From Mycobacteriales bacterium (GTDB lineage Bacteria; Actinomycetota; Actinomycetes; Mycobacteriales; SCTD01), in assembly GCA_030447385.1 (NCBI GenBank), contig JAUJOY010000001.1, forward strand, positions 854,830 through 918,829: a DNA stretch of 64,000 nucleotides. The letters run 5' to 3'. The notes below the pieces were generated by a model. The model saw only the letters and a program-made list of their open reading frames with translations. It made no database searches and was not told where the DNA came from. Shown here piece after piece: positions 59,091 to 64,000 of this stretch (positions within the stretch are counted from its first letter, which is position 1; the number at the start of each line of letters is the position of its first letter). A program made the translations under genes and the position numbers.

Positions 59091-60518
59091 TCAGGCGCCG
59101 GGTCGGCGGCCCGCCGGCTCCCCAGGGCCGGAACGCGGTCCGGGATCCCGGCCGCCGCCGATGTCCGCGCCGAGCCATGCCTCCACCGTCGTGCGCGCGA
59201 CGACGGCGCTTCGCTGCACGGCCCGCCGTCGCACGAGGACCCCGGGCAGCAGCCGCAGGAACGAGGCCACCACCTGAAGGCGCAGGCGGGCTTCGCTTCG
59301 GCCGCCGGCTCCTGGCGGCACGGCCCGTACGGCTGCGGCCGCCGTGGAGAGCAGGTAGCGGCCCACCGACCGACGTACCAGCGGGAAGGAGGCGTTCTTG
59401 GTCAGTGTCAGCAGCCGGTTGCGCGCGTCGTGGAACACGTGCAGGACCGAGCCGCTGCCCACCGTGGCGGAGTGCTCGTGACGGGCGACGGCGCGTGGCT
59501 GGTAGCGGACCGTCCAGCCTGCGCGCCGCAGGCGCCAGCACAGGTCCACGTCCTCGTAGTACAGGAACCACGCGTCGTCGAAGATCCCCACCTGCCCGAG
59601 CGCCGCCGTGCGCAGGGCCAGTGACGCACCGCACCCGCCGAACACCTCCGCGGGCATGTCGTACCCGGTGTCGTCGGCGCGGCCGAAGCCGCGATCTGCC
59701 GCGTAGCCGTCCAGCGTGAGCACCGTGCCCGCGCTGTTGACGACGTCCGTGGTGGGGGTACCCGCAGGCAGCTCGAGCACCACCCGGGCACCGTTCGGTG
59801 GGACGGCGTGCTGGCGATCGGCGACGTGCAGGGTGGCCGCTCGCGGGGCCCGTACCTGAACCTCGACGCACACCGGGTGCTCCAGCCGGGCCGCATCGGT
59901 GCGCAGCGGAACCAGCAGCTCGATCGAGGGTCGGCACCAGCGCACCCCGTCGGCCGGTGCCGCCACCAGCAGCGGGTCCCACACCAGCTCGGCGGTGACG
60001 TCCTCCCCGTCCCGCGCGACGCTGACCAGGCCGAGGCGGTCCACCCCCTGGGCCCGGAGGGGGACGGACACGAACCTGGGCTCCAGCAGCAGCTTGCCGG
60101 CCACGGCACCCACGCTGGCGTTCTCGAAGGGCTCCAGCAGAGCGTGCAGCCACCCGGGCTGCACCACGGCGTCGTCGTTGAGCAGGACGACGTAGGGGCT
60201 CCGCGCCTGCCGCAGAGCCAGGTTGTTGCCGCCCGCGAAGCCGAGGTTGCGCGTCGACCGGATCAGCCGCACCCCGTCGGTGCGGCCGAGCACGACCGCG
60301 TCGGAGCCGTCGCCGGAGGCGTTGTCGACCACCCAGCAGGCGACCTGTCCCTGCCCGACCAGGTCCTGCGCTGCGACGGCGTCCAGGCAGCGGTCCAGCC
60401 TCCGGGCGCCGTTGTAGGTGACCACGAGGACGGTGACGAGCACCCCGTCGCGGTCCGAGGCGAACACCGTGGCAGCCAACCACAGCCCGCCCGGTCCGCC
60501 GGTGCTTGACGCGGACAC
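59091..60518 (-). CDS. Glycosyltransferase family 2 (rhamnosyltransferase-like)
   Basis: VTVLVVTYNGARRLDRCLDAVAAQDL, NLGFAGGNNLALRQARSPYVVLLNDDAVV, FFDDAWFLYYEDVDLCWRLRRAGW-like FDDAWFLYYEDVDLCWRLRRAGW; start may be inside the ORF near VLVTVLVV. Confidence 0.9.
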   Translation of the reverse strand: MSASSTGGPGGLWLAATVFASDRDGVLVTVLVVTYNGARRLDRCLDAVAAQDLVGQGQVACWVVDNASGDGSDAVVLGRTDGVRLIRSTRNLGFAGGNNLALRQARSPYVVLLNDDAVVQPGWLHALLEPFENASVGAVAGKLLLEPRFVSVPLRAQGVDRLGLVSVARDGEDVTAELVWDPLLVAAPADGVRWCRPSIELLVPLRTDAARLEHPVCVEVQVRAPRAATLHVADRQHAVPPNGARVVLELPAGTPTTDVVNSAGTVLTLDGYAADRGFGRADDTGYDMPAEVFGGCGASLALRTAALGQVGIFDDAWFLYYEDVDLCWRLRRAGWTVRYQPRAVARHEHSATVGSGSVLHVFHDARNRLLTLTKNASFPLVRRSVGRYLLSTAAAAVRAVPPGAGGRSEARLRLQVVASFLRLLPGVLVRRRAVQRSAVVARTTVEAWLGADIGGGRDPGPRSGPGEPAGRRPGA

Positions 60519-60541: not shown

Positions 60542-61111
60542 GTGCACCCGCTGACGTCGGTGTTCCTGGCCGCGGCCGGGCTGCTGGCGCTCGCGGGTGG
60601 GACGAAGCTGGTGCGCTCGGCCGCCACCAGCCAGGCCCTGCGTCTGTCCGGTCTGCCGTCGCGGTCGTGGCTGGTGCGTCTCCTCGGTGCCGCGGAGGTG
60701 CTGGTGGCCGTGGCGGCCCTGCTGGAGGCGCCCTTCGCGGCGGCTGCGCTGGCGGCGACCTACGCGGCTTTCACCGTCTTCGTGGGCTCGGCGCTGCTGC
60801 GCGGGGTGCCGCTGGCCTCCTGCGGCTGCTTCGCTGAGCCGGACGTACCGCCGTCGCCTCTCCACGTCATCGTCACGTCGGTGCTCGCTATCAGCACCGG
60901 GGCGGTCGCGGCCGGGTCGGGCGGCGGGCTCAAGGACCTGCTGGACGGGCCGATGTTGATGGCGGCGGGTGTCGCGGGAAGCGCTGCCCTGGTCGGCTGG
61001 CTCACCTACCTGGCGCTCAGCGCCCTGCCGCGTCTGGCCGTGGAGCTGGGACACGATCCGCCCGCTCGGCCGCCCGGTCTCGCGGTACACCTACAAGGAG
61101 GCGCGTCGTGA
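60542..61111 (+). CDS. MauE/DoxX-like redox-associated membrane protein
   Basis: VHPLTSVFLAAAGLLALAGGTKLVR...LLGAAEVLVAVAALL...GVPLASCGCFAEPDVPPSPLHV; hydrophobic helices with a CGC motif. Confidence 0.75.
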   Translation: MHPLTSVFLAAAGLLALAGGTKLVRSAATSQALRLSGLPSRSWLVRLLGAAEVLVAVAALLEAPFAAAALAATYAAFTVFVGSALLRGVPLASCGCFAEPDVPPSPLHVIVTSVLAISTGAVAAGSGGGLKDLLDGPMLMAAGVAGSAALVGWLTYLALSALPRLAVELGHDPPARPPGLAVHLQGGAS

Positions 61112-61878
61112 CCGCCCTCGTCGTCGGCCTCACCTTCGCCGTGCTTCTCCTCGGCGTGCTCGTTGCCGGCCTGCTCCGCAGCCACGCCGAGATCCTGCGC
61201 TCTCTGCACGAGCTCGGCGCCGGGCGGGAGGACACGGCGCCTCGGGGACCGGTGGACGTGCCGTTCGAGGTGCGCTCAGGCGTCGTCGGACCGGGCAGCT
61301 CCATGGGGATCGCGGCTCCCGACCTGGTCGGCGTGACCCCGTCGGAGGAGGCGGTGCTGGTCAGCATGTCGACCCGCGGCTCCGACACCCTGCTCGCCTT
61401 CTTGTCCAGCGGCTGCCTCACCTGCTTCACCTTCTGGGATGCCTTCGCGCCGGGCCGCGACCTAGGACTGCCCGCGGACACCCGGCTCGTGGTGGTCACG
61501 AAGGGGCGGGAGATGGAGAGCCAGTCCGCCATCCGCGACCTGGCGTCCCCCGGGGTTCCGGTCGTCATGTCGACGCAGGCCTGGGACGACTACGGCGTGC
61601 CCGGCAGCCCCTACTTCGTGCACGTCGACGGCGCCGCCGGCCGTGTGGCGGGAGAGGGATCCGCCACCGCCTGGGAGCAGGTCGTCCGCCTCGTGCGGGA
61701 GGCCACCGAGGACCGTGCGCTGACGTTGCGGCAGACAGGCGACGACGAGGACCGCGGTGACGGCGCGCACCGCGAAGCTCGCGCCGACCGGGAGCTGCTC
61801 CGCGCCGGCATCACGCCGGGGCACGACAGCCTCTACCCCGGCGGCGACGTGCCCGGCCAGGAAGAGGAGCGGCACTGA
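61108..61878 (+). CDS. Membrane-anchored thioredoxin-like protein (MauD-like)
   Basis: N-terminal TM; LLAFLSSGCLTCFTFWDAF (CLTC); PGVPVVMSTQAWDDYGVPGSPYFVHVDG; GTGA overlap with the previous gene. Confidence 0.75.
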   Translation: MTALVVGLTFAVLLLGVLVAGLLRSHAEILRSLHELGAGREDTAPRGPVDVPFEVRSGVVGPGSSMGIAAPDLVGVTPSEEAVLVSMSTRGSDTLLAFLSSGCLTCFTFWDAFAPGRDLGLPADTRLVVVTKGREMESQSAIRDLASPGVPVVMSTQAWDDYGVPGSPYFVHVDGAAGRVAGEGSATAWEQVVRLVREATEDRALTLRQTGDDEDRGDGAHREARADRELLRAGITPGHDSLYPGGDVPGQEEERH

Positions 61879-61958
61879 TGGACCTGTCGATGTGGGCGCT
61901 GGTGGTAGGCGTGCCGACCGCGGTTCTGGCTGCACTGCGCTCGATGTGGTCGCCTTGA
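61878..61958 (+). CDS. 26-aa predicted single-TM microprotein
   Basis: ATG overlaps previous stop (TGATG); MDLSMWALVVGVPTAVLAALRSMWSP*; followed 10 nt later by the next gene. Confidence 0.45.
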   Translation: MDLSMWALVVGVPTAVLAALRSMWSP

Positions 61959-61967
61959 GGCGAGTCG

Positions 61968-62573
61968 ATGCTCACGAGCATCACCCCGCTCGGTGAGCGG
62001 GGACGCGCCAGCCGCTGGTCCATCACCGCCACGGCGTACGTGCTCGGCTCGGTCGTCGGCGGAGCCGCGGTCGGGACGCTGGCCGGTGCACTCGGCTGGC
62101 TCCTGCCCCTCGAGGTGCCCGCTGTGGCGGCGGGGGCCTTGGTCCTGCTCACGGTCGCCGCGGTGCTCGCGGTGCTGGTCGAGCGCGGCCGGCTGCCCCA
62201 GGTGCCCACGGTGCGCCGGCAGGTCGACGAGGACTGGCTGCACCGCTACCGCGGGTGGGTGTACGGCGTCGGCTTCGGCGCGCAGCTCGGGGCTGCCCTC
62301 GTGACGATCGTGACCTCCCCGACCGTGCACCTCGCCCTTGCGCTGGCCCTCCTGACTGGCTCCCCCGCTGGTGGTGCGGTCCTGGGATCTTCTTTCGGCC
62401 TGGCGCGGGCCCTGCCGGTGCTCGGGATGCGCCGGGTCACGACGACGGAGCACCTCGCCACCTCGTCGCGCCGCCTCGCGTCGCGCGAGCGGACGGGTCG
62501 CGCCGCCGCCGCCGCCGGGCTTGCCGCCATCGCGGCCGCCAGTGCGGCGCAGCTCCTGGTGGGTGTCACGTGA
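61968..62573 (+). CDS. Unknown polytopic membrane protein
   Basis: MLTSITPLGERGRASRWSITATAYVLGSVVGGAAVGTLAGALGWLL...; five to six hydrophobic segments. Confidence 0.75.
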   Translation: MLTSITPLGERGRASRWSITATAYVLGSVVGGAAVGTLAGALGWLLPLEVPAVAAGALVLLTVAAVLAVLVERGRLPQVPTVRRQVDEDWLHRYRGWVYGVGFGAQLGAALVTIVTSPTVHLALALALLTGSPAGGAVLGSSFGLARALPVLGMRRVTTTEHLATSSRRLASRERTGRAAAAAGLAAIAAASAAQLLVGVT

Positions 62574-63037
62574 AGGTGCGCGGCCACGGGATGGCCGTCG
62601 ACGCCCCGCCAGGCTGGGAAGTCCGCATCAGGCGGCGCCTGCCCGAGAGCGGCGAGCCGGAGGCACGCCCGCGCCCGGTGCTGCACGCTGCGACAATCGC
62701 ACTGCCCGAGGTGCGCGGCGACTTCGGCGGCAACGTGACCGGACTGATGACGCAGGACGACGTCTTCGTCTCGCTGTTCGAGTATGAGCCGTCCGCGGCC
62801 GCGACCCCACTGTTCGCTTCCCACAAGCGACCCGTTCCGACTCCGCAGGACTTCAGCCCCGCCGGGTTGCAGCGCAGCATCGCCGGTCAGTCGGGCCGGC
62901 AGTACTTCTTCCAGGAGTCGGGACGGGCCTTCTGCCTGTACGTCGTCCTGGGCAGCCACGCCCGCCGGGCCGTGCTGGTGCGCGCTGTCCGTGCGGTCCT
63001 CGACTCGCTCGAGCTCTCGGCAGGCGCGGACTCATGA
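62570..63037 (+). CDS. Hypothetical protein of the same operon
   Basis: GTGA overlap; VKVRGHGMAVDAPPGWEVRIRRRLPESGE...GRQYFFQESGRAFCLYVVLGSHARRAVLVRAVRAVLDSLEL. Confidence 0.75.
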   Translation: MKVRGHGMAVDAPPGWEVRIRRRLPESGEPEARPRPVLHAATIALPEVRGDFGGNVTGLMTQDDVFVSLFEYEPSAAATPLFASHKRPVPTPQDFSPAGLQRSIAGQSGRQYFFQESGRAFCLYVVLGSHARRAVLVRAVRAVLDSLELSAGADS

Positions 63038-64000
63038 GCTCGGACCTGTTGGTGCGCGACTCCGGCCGCACGTCCCCGACGCTCGTGGAGCGGGCGGCAG
63101 CGGCCCTCGACCGCGGCCCCAGCCGCCGGAGCTTCCTCGTCCGCATGGCGGTGGTGGGTTCCGCGCTGACCGTGTCTCCGCTGCGCTTCCTGCTGCGACC
63201 CGGCACCGCCTACGCAGCGGTCTGCGGTGTGGACTCCACCTGCTCGTCCGGCTACACCGCCTTCTGCTGCACGATCAACAACGGCATCAACCGGTGCCCC
63301 CCCGGCAGCCTCGTCGGGGGCTGGTGGAAGTCCGACAACTCCGGGTTCTGCTGCGGTAACGCGCGCTACTACATCGACTGCCACAGCTACTGCTCGTGCG
63401 GCTGCGAGGCTGGTCGCAACTTCTGCGGCGAGGGCTGCCGCAACTGTTCCTGCGGCTGCGGGCCGAGTGGCCAGTGCGACCAGCGCAGGGTGTGCTGCAA
63501 CAACTTCCGCTACGGCCAGTGCAACCAGGGCATCTCCTGCACCGGTCCGGTGTGGTGCCGCGTCGTCACCTGCACCCCGCCGTGGCGGGTGCCGGCCTGG
63601 AGCTGCTCCACGACCAGCGCCCACGACCAGCGCACCAACGACCACGGCGCACCCTGCCTCGTCGACTGCACCGGCATAAACAACAAGTACACCGCCCTGG
63701 GCGGGCCGGGGTCGGTCCTGGGTGAGGCCATCACCCGCGAGCTGGCTCCTCCCGACGGCGTGGGTCGCTACACGCACTACGACCGCGGTTCGATCTACTG
63801 GCACCCCGCGATCGGCGCCTTCGCGGTCTGGGGGGCGATCCGGCAGAAGTGGCAGCAGCTGCGCTGGGAGACCGGCCCGCTGGGCTACCCGGTGACGGAC
63901 GAGACGCCGACCCCGGACGGCGTGGGTCGCTACAACCACTTCCAGCGCGGTTCGATCTACTGGCACCCCGCGATCGGCGCCTTCGCGGTCTGGGGGGCGA
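63034..64000 (+). CDS. Tat-exported Cys-rich protein resembling methylamine dehydrogenase light chain, fused to LGFP repeats (runs off right edge)
   Basis: ATGA overlap; SRRSFLVRMAVVGSALTVSPLRF Tat signal; 26 Cys after cleavage, including NRCPPGSLVGGWWKSDNSGFCCG and GPVWCRVVTC; LGFP repeats GRYTHYDRGSIYWHPAIGAFAVWGA and GRYNHFQRGSIYWHPAIGAFAVWGA. Confidence 0.8.
   Translation, partial: MSSDLLVRDSGRTSPTLVERAAAALDRGPSRRSFLVRMAVVGSALTVSPLRFLLRPGTAYAAVCGVDSTCSSGYTAFCCTINNGINRCPPGSLVGGWWKSDNSGFCCGNARYYIDCHSYCSCGCEAGRNFCGEGCRNCSCGCGPSGQCDQRRVCCNNFRYGQCNQGISCTGPVWCRVVTCTPPWRVPAWSCSTTSAHDQRTNDHGAPCLVDCTGINNKYTALGGPGSVLGEAITRELAPPDGVGRYTHYDRGSIYWHPAIGAFAVWGAIRQKWQQLRWETGPLGYPVTDETPTPDGVGRYNHFQRGSIYWHPAIGAFAVWGA

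Follow-up and report, generated by a model that had tools for sequence, protein, structure and literature searches.

In the 64,000-nt stretch analyzed here (G000:C9:854830-918829, within a 3.41-Mb genome; hereafter the window), the genes from position 60542 to the end form an operon that we read as dedicated to the export and oxidative folding of a Cys-rich protein. Judged from sequence comparison, it would combine three factors similar to MauF, MauE and MauD of the methylamine dehydrogenase (MADH) system with the Cys-rich protein as their client, and the MauF-like factor would be a selenoprotein. We hold this reading to be probable, at roughly 80%. The open reading frames (ORFs), overlaps and motifs listed for positions 60542-64000 in a first-pass annotation were all found, including the junctions GTGA at 61108, TGATG at 61876-61880, a 9-nt gap at 61959-61967, GTGA at 62570 and ATGA at 63034, as well as the domain with 26 cysteines that precedes LGFP repeats (PF08310, E 1e-38). 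The locus comprises the following features:

60542..61111, + strand: MauE-like membrane protein with an invariant CGC (SCGCF) motif (PF07291)
61108..61878, + strand: MauD-like thioredoxin-fold protein, N-terminally membrane-anchored, with a CLTC motif (profile match to MauD)
61878..62573, + strand: predicted MauF-like membrane selenoprotein, one gene, 231 residues if read through the in-frame TGA
61956..61958, + strand: UGA codon, predicted selenocysteine (Sec) U27, at the position of the MauF WSPCG cysteine
61967..62002, + strand: RNA resembling a selenocysteine insertion sequence (SECIS), directly 3' of the UGA, two hairpins
61967..61982, + strand: hairpin GAUGCU/AGCAUC, directly 3' of the UGA
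61984..62002, + strand: second hairpin, with a GGU apical loop
62570..63037, + strand: conserved protein of about 155 amino acids (aa) without signal peptide (conserved in 46 loci)
63034..63216, + strand: twin-arginine (Tat) leader (SRRSFL...), predicted cleavage after AYA
63217..63690, + strand: Cys-rich domain, 26 Cys in the window copy (alignments A2 and A9 and a wider alignment)
63718..64000, + strand, continuing to about L002:5521: LGFP repeats (PF08310 and contig continuation)

A conserved operon with Mau-type maturation genes

The operon is real and conserved across many families of the Actinomycetota, far beyond what chance would produce. Our systematic genome searches covered this phylum only, and the rows of the alignments are related to one another. 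About 45 loci of other Actinomycetota, those of two Kineococcus species and of Nitriliruptoraceae among them, show this set of genes in synteny, and the genes for the MauE-like, the thioredoxin-like, the polytopic membrane, the 155-aa and the Cys-rich protein adjoin in nearly all loci with adequate flanks. The gene order of the window recurs in 31 loci and several permutations are found elsewhere; these counts include a few duplicates of one contig and denote loci, not independent events. The MauE, thioredoxin, membrane and Cys-rich genes, whose association the first-pass annotation had left to a survey of neighbourhoods, remain together in other actinobacteria. With the Cys protein as query, relatives turned up in 15 of 24 genomes from the GTDB family to which the window belongs; two Kineococcus species and three Nitriliruptoraceae metagenome-assembled genomes have them as well. 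A profile search of the phylum matched the Cys-protein family in 38 of 397 genomes.

The identity of the first gene product as MauE-like, proposed earlier, is confirmed by PF07291 (48.6 bits against a cut-off of 27, E 1.3e-12). Both cysteines of its CGC motif are invariant (alignment A6), and CGCF is also present in the MauE proteins of Paracoccus and Novosphingobium. The thioredoxin-like protein had been assigned to the MauD position, and rightly so: profile A3, built from the CxTC proteins, matches MauD of P. denitrificans (E 4e-8), and C103 and C106 are invariant. A relative matches TIGR02661 at 1.1e-5, well under the equivalog cut-off, and the window protein itself reaches 17.4 of the 188.6 bits required. 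By these profiles, it is homologous to MauD but not an equivalog.

The 155-aa protein is conserved in 46 loci and confined to this operon. Among 17 members no credible Pfam match was obtained. AlphaFold2 gave a partial model (predicted TM score 0.67), for which no PDB structure was a significant match; several of the top ones were PsbP-like chains with E 0.26 or worse.

With regard to the origin of the operon, a concatenated tree of the thioredoxin-like, MauF-like and 155-aa proteins joins the window operon to Kineococcus (support 1.000) and not to the clade that its own GTDB family forms. The Cys protein of the window shares 75% identity with Kineococcus and about 55% with genomes of the same genus. 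Because of this tree placement and these identities, our comparison suggests horizontal transfer of the window's operon. The Cys gene of Kineococcus rubinsiae (L021:5455-7409) is split over two frames, apparently by a frameshift or by an error in the sequence.

Around the operon, an alternative upstream start of the MauE-like gene is possible (TTG at 60506). ORFs downstream of the Cys-LGFP gene read as GDP-mannose dehydratase-like proteins and glycosyltransferases. Neither mauB nor mauG was recognised when the ORFs of 15 kb downstream were read, a genome-wide search for both genes not having been run.

A UGA codon within the MauF-like gene

Between the genes for the MauD-like and the 155-aa protein, the first-pass annotation had placed two products, a 26-aa transmembrane peptide and a polytopic membrane protein. 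The latter is present, but best read not as a separate gene, being joined in frame to the 26-aa ORF; the peptide would then be the N-terminus of a UGA-containing MauF-like protein. It always ends in WSP followed by the stop, the next ORF begins exactly four codons on in the same frame, and the three codons between the TGA and the downstream ATG are conserved as G-x-S. Frame and spacing across the UGA are constant in 45 of 45 aligned loci, and conserved residues flank the codon on either side (R..WSP-U-G-x-S). The MauF-like protein passes the cut-off of Pfam DsbD_2 (PF13386; 29.2 versus 24.9 bits), and its profile finds only itself in the window's own genome. Searched against eight mau/aau plasmids, the profile of the polytopic protein gave exactly three matches, all annotated mauF (E 1.1e-16, 1.2e-14 and 1.3e-12). 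At the UGA site, Paracoccus MauF reads LLSTWSPCGYSS, and if the read-through protein is aligned with MauF, P, U/C, G and S are invariant in all ten sequences, with U opposite the Cys of WSPCG. By homology, mauF, mauE and mauD all have counterparts in this Mau-type maturation operon.

The codon at the UGA position is TGA in 44 of the 45 aligned loci and TGC (Cys) in one (L098); L125 and L127, from other genomes without detected tRNA-Sec, have TGC as well. In all, the Cys codon occurs in three genomes, none with a detected tRNA-Sec, and L125, L126 and L127 provide the Cys homologues. The Gly at +1 uses all four GGN codons, with synonymous variation around the UGA, and the ATG after the UGA is retained in 44 of 45 loci, being replaced by CTG in L078. 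Since the Gly codons vary in this way and CTG stands for ATG in one locus, the stretch between UGA and ATG behaves as translated.

Several codons 3' of the UGA are invariant (Ser AGC 39/39, Ile ATC 38/38, Pro CCG 39/39, Glu GAG 36/36) while their neighbours vary. As the choice of amino acid would not require one particular codon, these frozen codons point to a constraint at the RNA level. In the window, this RNA folds with z = -3.07. A plain mononucleotide shuffle yielded a mean z of only -0.8. Covariation of the two hairpins exceeded all 500 shuffles (0/500), which do not correct for relatedness, and the short-protein loci swap C-G for G-C on both hairpin sides, a compensatory change. RNAalifold over all sequences recovered no more than a portion of the structure, as there are two registers for the second hairpin. 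With both registers allowed, 39 of 44 UGA forms have intact hairpins, compared to none of the three Cys forms.

The genome of the window also encodes a decoding apparatus: a tRNA-Sec (72 bits, anticodon TCA according to ARAGORN), SelA (422 versus 268 bits) and SelB (272 versus 242 bits), both above their cut-offs. The genes selC, selA and selB form one cluster (L132:6856-12674). Across the phylum, tRNA-Sec was detected in 32 of 38 family-bearing genomes compared to 172 of 359 others (Fisher p 1.3e-5, uncorrected for relatedness). Three of the six family-bearing genomes without it (G158, G398, G406) possess a continuous MauF gene with TGC at the UGA position; the other three are a draft with the UGA form (G181) and two genomes whose loci have a missing or masked N-terminus (G213, G291). 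Two drafts from the window's own family (G014, G010) likewise carry the UGA form with no tRNA-Sec detected, which would most simply be due to an assembly gap. In-frame TGA codons of stand-alone Cys proteins were considered too; being located at the extreme C-terminus, they were taken for ordinary stops.

The comparative signature of a selenoprotein gene is thus at hand: a UGA with coding sequence on both sides, Cys homologues, a SECIS-like hairpin and the Sec machinery. From it we conclude that the UGA in the MauF-like gene is very probably read as selenocysteine. If it were instead a true stop, the products would be a 26-aa membrane peptide and, as a protein of its own, the polytopic one, coupled by termination and re-initiation. 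Both ORFs are valid, the ATG behind the UGA is nearly always kept, and TGA is the dominant stop. However, the homology to MauF is unbroken across the UGA, the G-x-S codons vary synonymously, ATG can give way to CTG, and the Cys-codon versions are continuous ORFs in genomes lacking tRNA-Sec, so that a true stop appears very improbable. Slightly less credible still is that the UGA is read through as another amino acid, be it Trp, Cys or that of a near-cognate tRNA. Sec in the protein is a prediction, which leaves room for such a reading; yet Cys is what replaces the residue, tRNA-Sec, SelA and SelB are present, structured RNA follows the UGA, and the Cys forms occur in genomes devoid of tRNA-Sec. 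A few observations do weigh against Sec and the proposed operon as a whole. SelD was not located, and no selD was seen near the selC/selA/selB cluster. No SECIS model of Rfam matches the RNA flanking the UGA, and in the SECIS-like structure, provisional in its exact shape, the second hairpin adopts the other register in most Nitriliruptoraceae-type loci. In total, three draft genomes (G181, G014, G010) combine the UGA form with no detected tRNA-Sec. The uniformity of TGA (44/44), finally, was judged a weak argument for Sec when taken alone, since 93% of the true stops in these genes are TGA.

The Cys-rich protein and its relation to MADH light chains

All members of the Cys-protein family share the RR leader and the Cys-rich domain with about 13 invariant cysteines. 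Within the leader, R31, R32, F34, L35, A59, Y60 and A61 are invariant in 18 members; compared to TIGR01409 it scores 15.5 bits, just under the cut-off of 16.7. No family of Pfam or NCBIfam covers the Cys-rich domain (Pfam: 18 members, E<=10), which therefore represents a family undescribed in both. Plasmid searches found no relatives of the domain, and an AlphaFold2 model from five sequences reached a predicted local distance difference test score (pLDDT) of 28.8.

The fusion of this domain to LGFP repeats, which the first-pass annotation had pointed out, is real but not essential. LGFP repeats form the C-terminus in the window, in Kineococcus, in Nitriliruptoraceae and in others, while further members bear FG-GAP-like, GWAxDPDT-type or DGGIFxFGDA-type repeats or nothing at all. 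In L074 and L079-L084, the same Cys domain is joined to FG-GAP-like, GWAxDPDT, DGGIFxFGDA or LGFP repeats. Judged from these architectures, the presenting module behaves as if exchangeable. Following the contig beyond position 64000, as had been suggested, we found that the Cys-LGFP gene carries on through further LGFP repeats to about L002:5521. An assembly gap (a run of N, L002:4831-4931) breaks the gene inside the LGFP array just beyond the window end and obscures the true number of repeats.

A second family, one of short Tat-type Cys proteins (AYHICGHTYTT...CCGGRIR..DCC...VFCIGYRD) was observed in L067, L069, L070, L071 and L073 (and L068, L072). It adjoins the UGA form of MauF, a MauD-like gene and a divergently transcribed MauE-like gene, and has no Pfam match.

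The Cys-rich domain had been likened to the MADH light chain, an identity that in a strict sense is not supported. The comparison with the MADH beta-subunit family (PF02975) that had been recommended gave no match of the window protein at E<=1 and none of 18 members at E<=10; in the 397 genomes of the phylum, no protein scored above the PF02975 cut-off, and a sequence search of the PDB returned no match for the domain. Concerning the pattern of two Trp residues, the first (GWW) is conserved, while the second ('WC') is restricted to the window and Kineococcus copies and replaced by His, Val, Gln, Thr, Met or Ala in most members. Profiles of the full-length Cys protein nevertheless reach light chains: profile-profile comparison with MauA/AauA gave a probability of 94-95%, hmmsearch recovered five of eight MauA/AauA sequences (E 2e-5 to 5e-3), and profile A2 singled out the light chain of Haematobacter in its plasmid (E 1e-4). 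The mature domain alone, in contrast, yielded a probability of 3-4% (P ~0.01), and eight of 300 column shuffles scored as high. Because the mature domain falls within the range of shuffled columns, the similarity largely stems from the leader.

These results bear on two alternatives. Were the domain a true MADH-type light chain that forms tryptophan tryptophylquinone (TTQ), the operon would encode a surface amine dehydrogenase. The Tat leader together with the CPPG...W...C pattern, the reach of the full-length profile and the MauF/E/D neighbours are in line with this. It is nonetheless highly implausible, as PF02975 does not match, the second Trp is replaced in most members, no mauB or mauG was recognised beside the operon when the downstream ORFs were read by eye, and the match of the mature domain is indistinguishable from shuffled columns. 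Thus, the sequences do not indicate a TTQ enzyme. Far closer to an even question is whether the Cys domain and MauA lack a common ancestor, the leader serving the same machinery and the Cys-rich composition being convergent. The failure of the mature domain in the shuffled-column control fits such a convergence, whereas C-X5-C, CPPG, W and RYxxDC/YLxxYxDC align colinearly along with the leader, so that in the full-length comparison the Cys pattern is partly colinear with that of MauA. In our view, the Cys protein falls outside the MADH light-chain family, to which it may nonetheless be related.

Proposed mechanism and meaning

In the mechanism we consider most likely, the Cys-rich domain would be exported via the Tat route, as predicted from its leader, and the C-terminal repeats, LGFP in the window, would present it on the cell envelope. 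Outside the membrane, the anchored MauD-like CxTC protein would make or proofread the disulfides of the domain, exchanging electrons with two membrane partners, the MauE-like protein through its CGC motif and the MauF-like protein through Sec. The latter, of DsbD/CcdA type, would carry its single redox residue in WSPU, as Sec encoded by UGA. Its part after the UGA is free of any Cys in 29 of 50 sequences; since the protein usually has no other conserved Cys, the selenol would have to act through a partner protein by an intermolecular bond, most simply with the CxTC motif of the MauD-like protein. The 155-aa protein might be a further factor, probably cytoplasmic. That the Cys protein is the client is argued from gene linkage, a point to be counted against this scheme.

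The flow of electrons could be the reverse. DsbD/CcdA-type proteins normally bring reducing power outward, and Sec is a good reductant. Accordingly, the Cys domain might bind metals or metalloids as thiolates and be kept reduced by the MauF-, MauE- and MauD-like proteins. We regard this as unlikely, since the CGC motif of the MauE-like protein suits an oxidase relay, the searches gave no match to a known metal-binding domain, and the Mau parallel is tied to disulfide formation in MauA (as put in a passage of PMC7794033, citing van der Palen 1997). That passage offers, as a speculation, that MauE helps to form the disulfides of the MADH small subunit, and calls the exact role of MauD unclear. 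The small subunit has six disulfides (PMC7876137).

Among known systems, mauFBEDA of P. denitrificans (NC_008688.1; L037/L046) is the obvious point of comparison for the proposed oxidative-folding operon. Both encode MauF-, MauE- and MauD-type proteins together with a Tat-type Cys-rich protein, and share similar leaders, the CGCF motif of MauE and the WSPCG motif of MauF, with U for C in the window. In contrast to mauFBEDA, the window operon has no recognised mauB or mauG at the locus, possesses the additional 155-aa protein and joins the client to surface repeats; its MauF-like protein has a predicted Sec in place of Cys and is without the N-terminal extension, and the TTQ Trp pair is missing. 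With the DsbD_2/CcdA thiol transporters (PF13386), the MauF-like protein shares the score over the cut-off and a Cys or Sec at the end of the first helix. However, it bears a single Sec/Cys rather than a conserved pair, and its profile is specific to MauF. TsoB (NF045694, resembling a rhodanese/DsbD fusion) likewise has Sec in a DsbD-type context, but as two Sec in a UxxxxU motif. LGFP surface proteins (PF08310) share the C-terminal repeats; the window protein differs by its undescribed N-terminal Cys-rich domain, and its relatives have LGFP exchanged or absent.

A 2026 inventory of 119 prokaryotic selenoprotein families contains no MauF-type or WSPU entry, TsoB being the nearest (PMC13188914). 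NCBIfam 20.0 gave no match for the read-through MauF-like protein, and in the limited libraries available to us we found no relevant literature linking MauF or methylamine dehydrogenase with selenocysteine, so that earlier reports elsewhere are possible.

Taken together, we think there is a good chance that MauF, MauE and MauD form a folding system of general use for Cys-rich proteins exported by Tat, widespread in Actinomycetota and serving two or more new client families, and that MauF represents a new WSPU selenoprotein family which turns to Cys where a lineage lacks Sec decoding. In dozens of genomes, gene finders break up the predicted selenoprotein, calling a tiny ORF and, separately, a truncated membrane protein. 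A new, predicted surface domain rich in Cys, with interchangeable presenting repeats, is defined as well. If our reading is true, selenocysteine would occur in a MauF/CcdA-type membrane redox protein of aerobic Actinomycetota. The function of MauF, MauE and MauD stayed unclear because methylamine dehydrogenase is the main setting in which these proteins are known; their electron path would become directly testable through a second and independent set of clients that comes with a selenium-labelled redox center.

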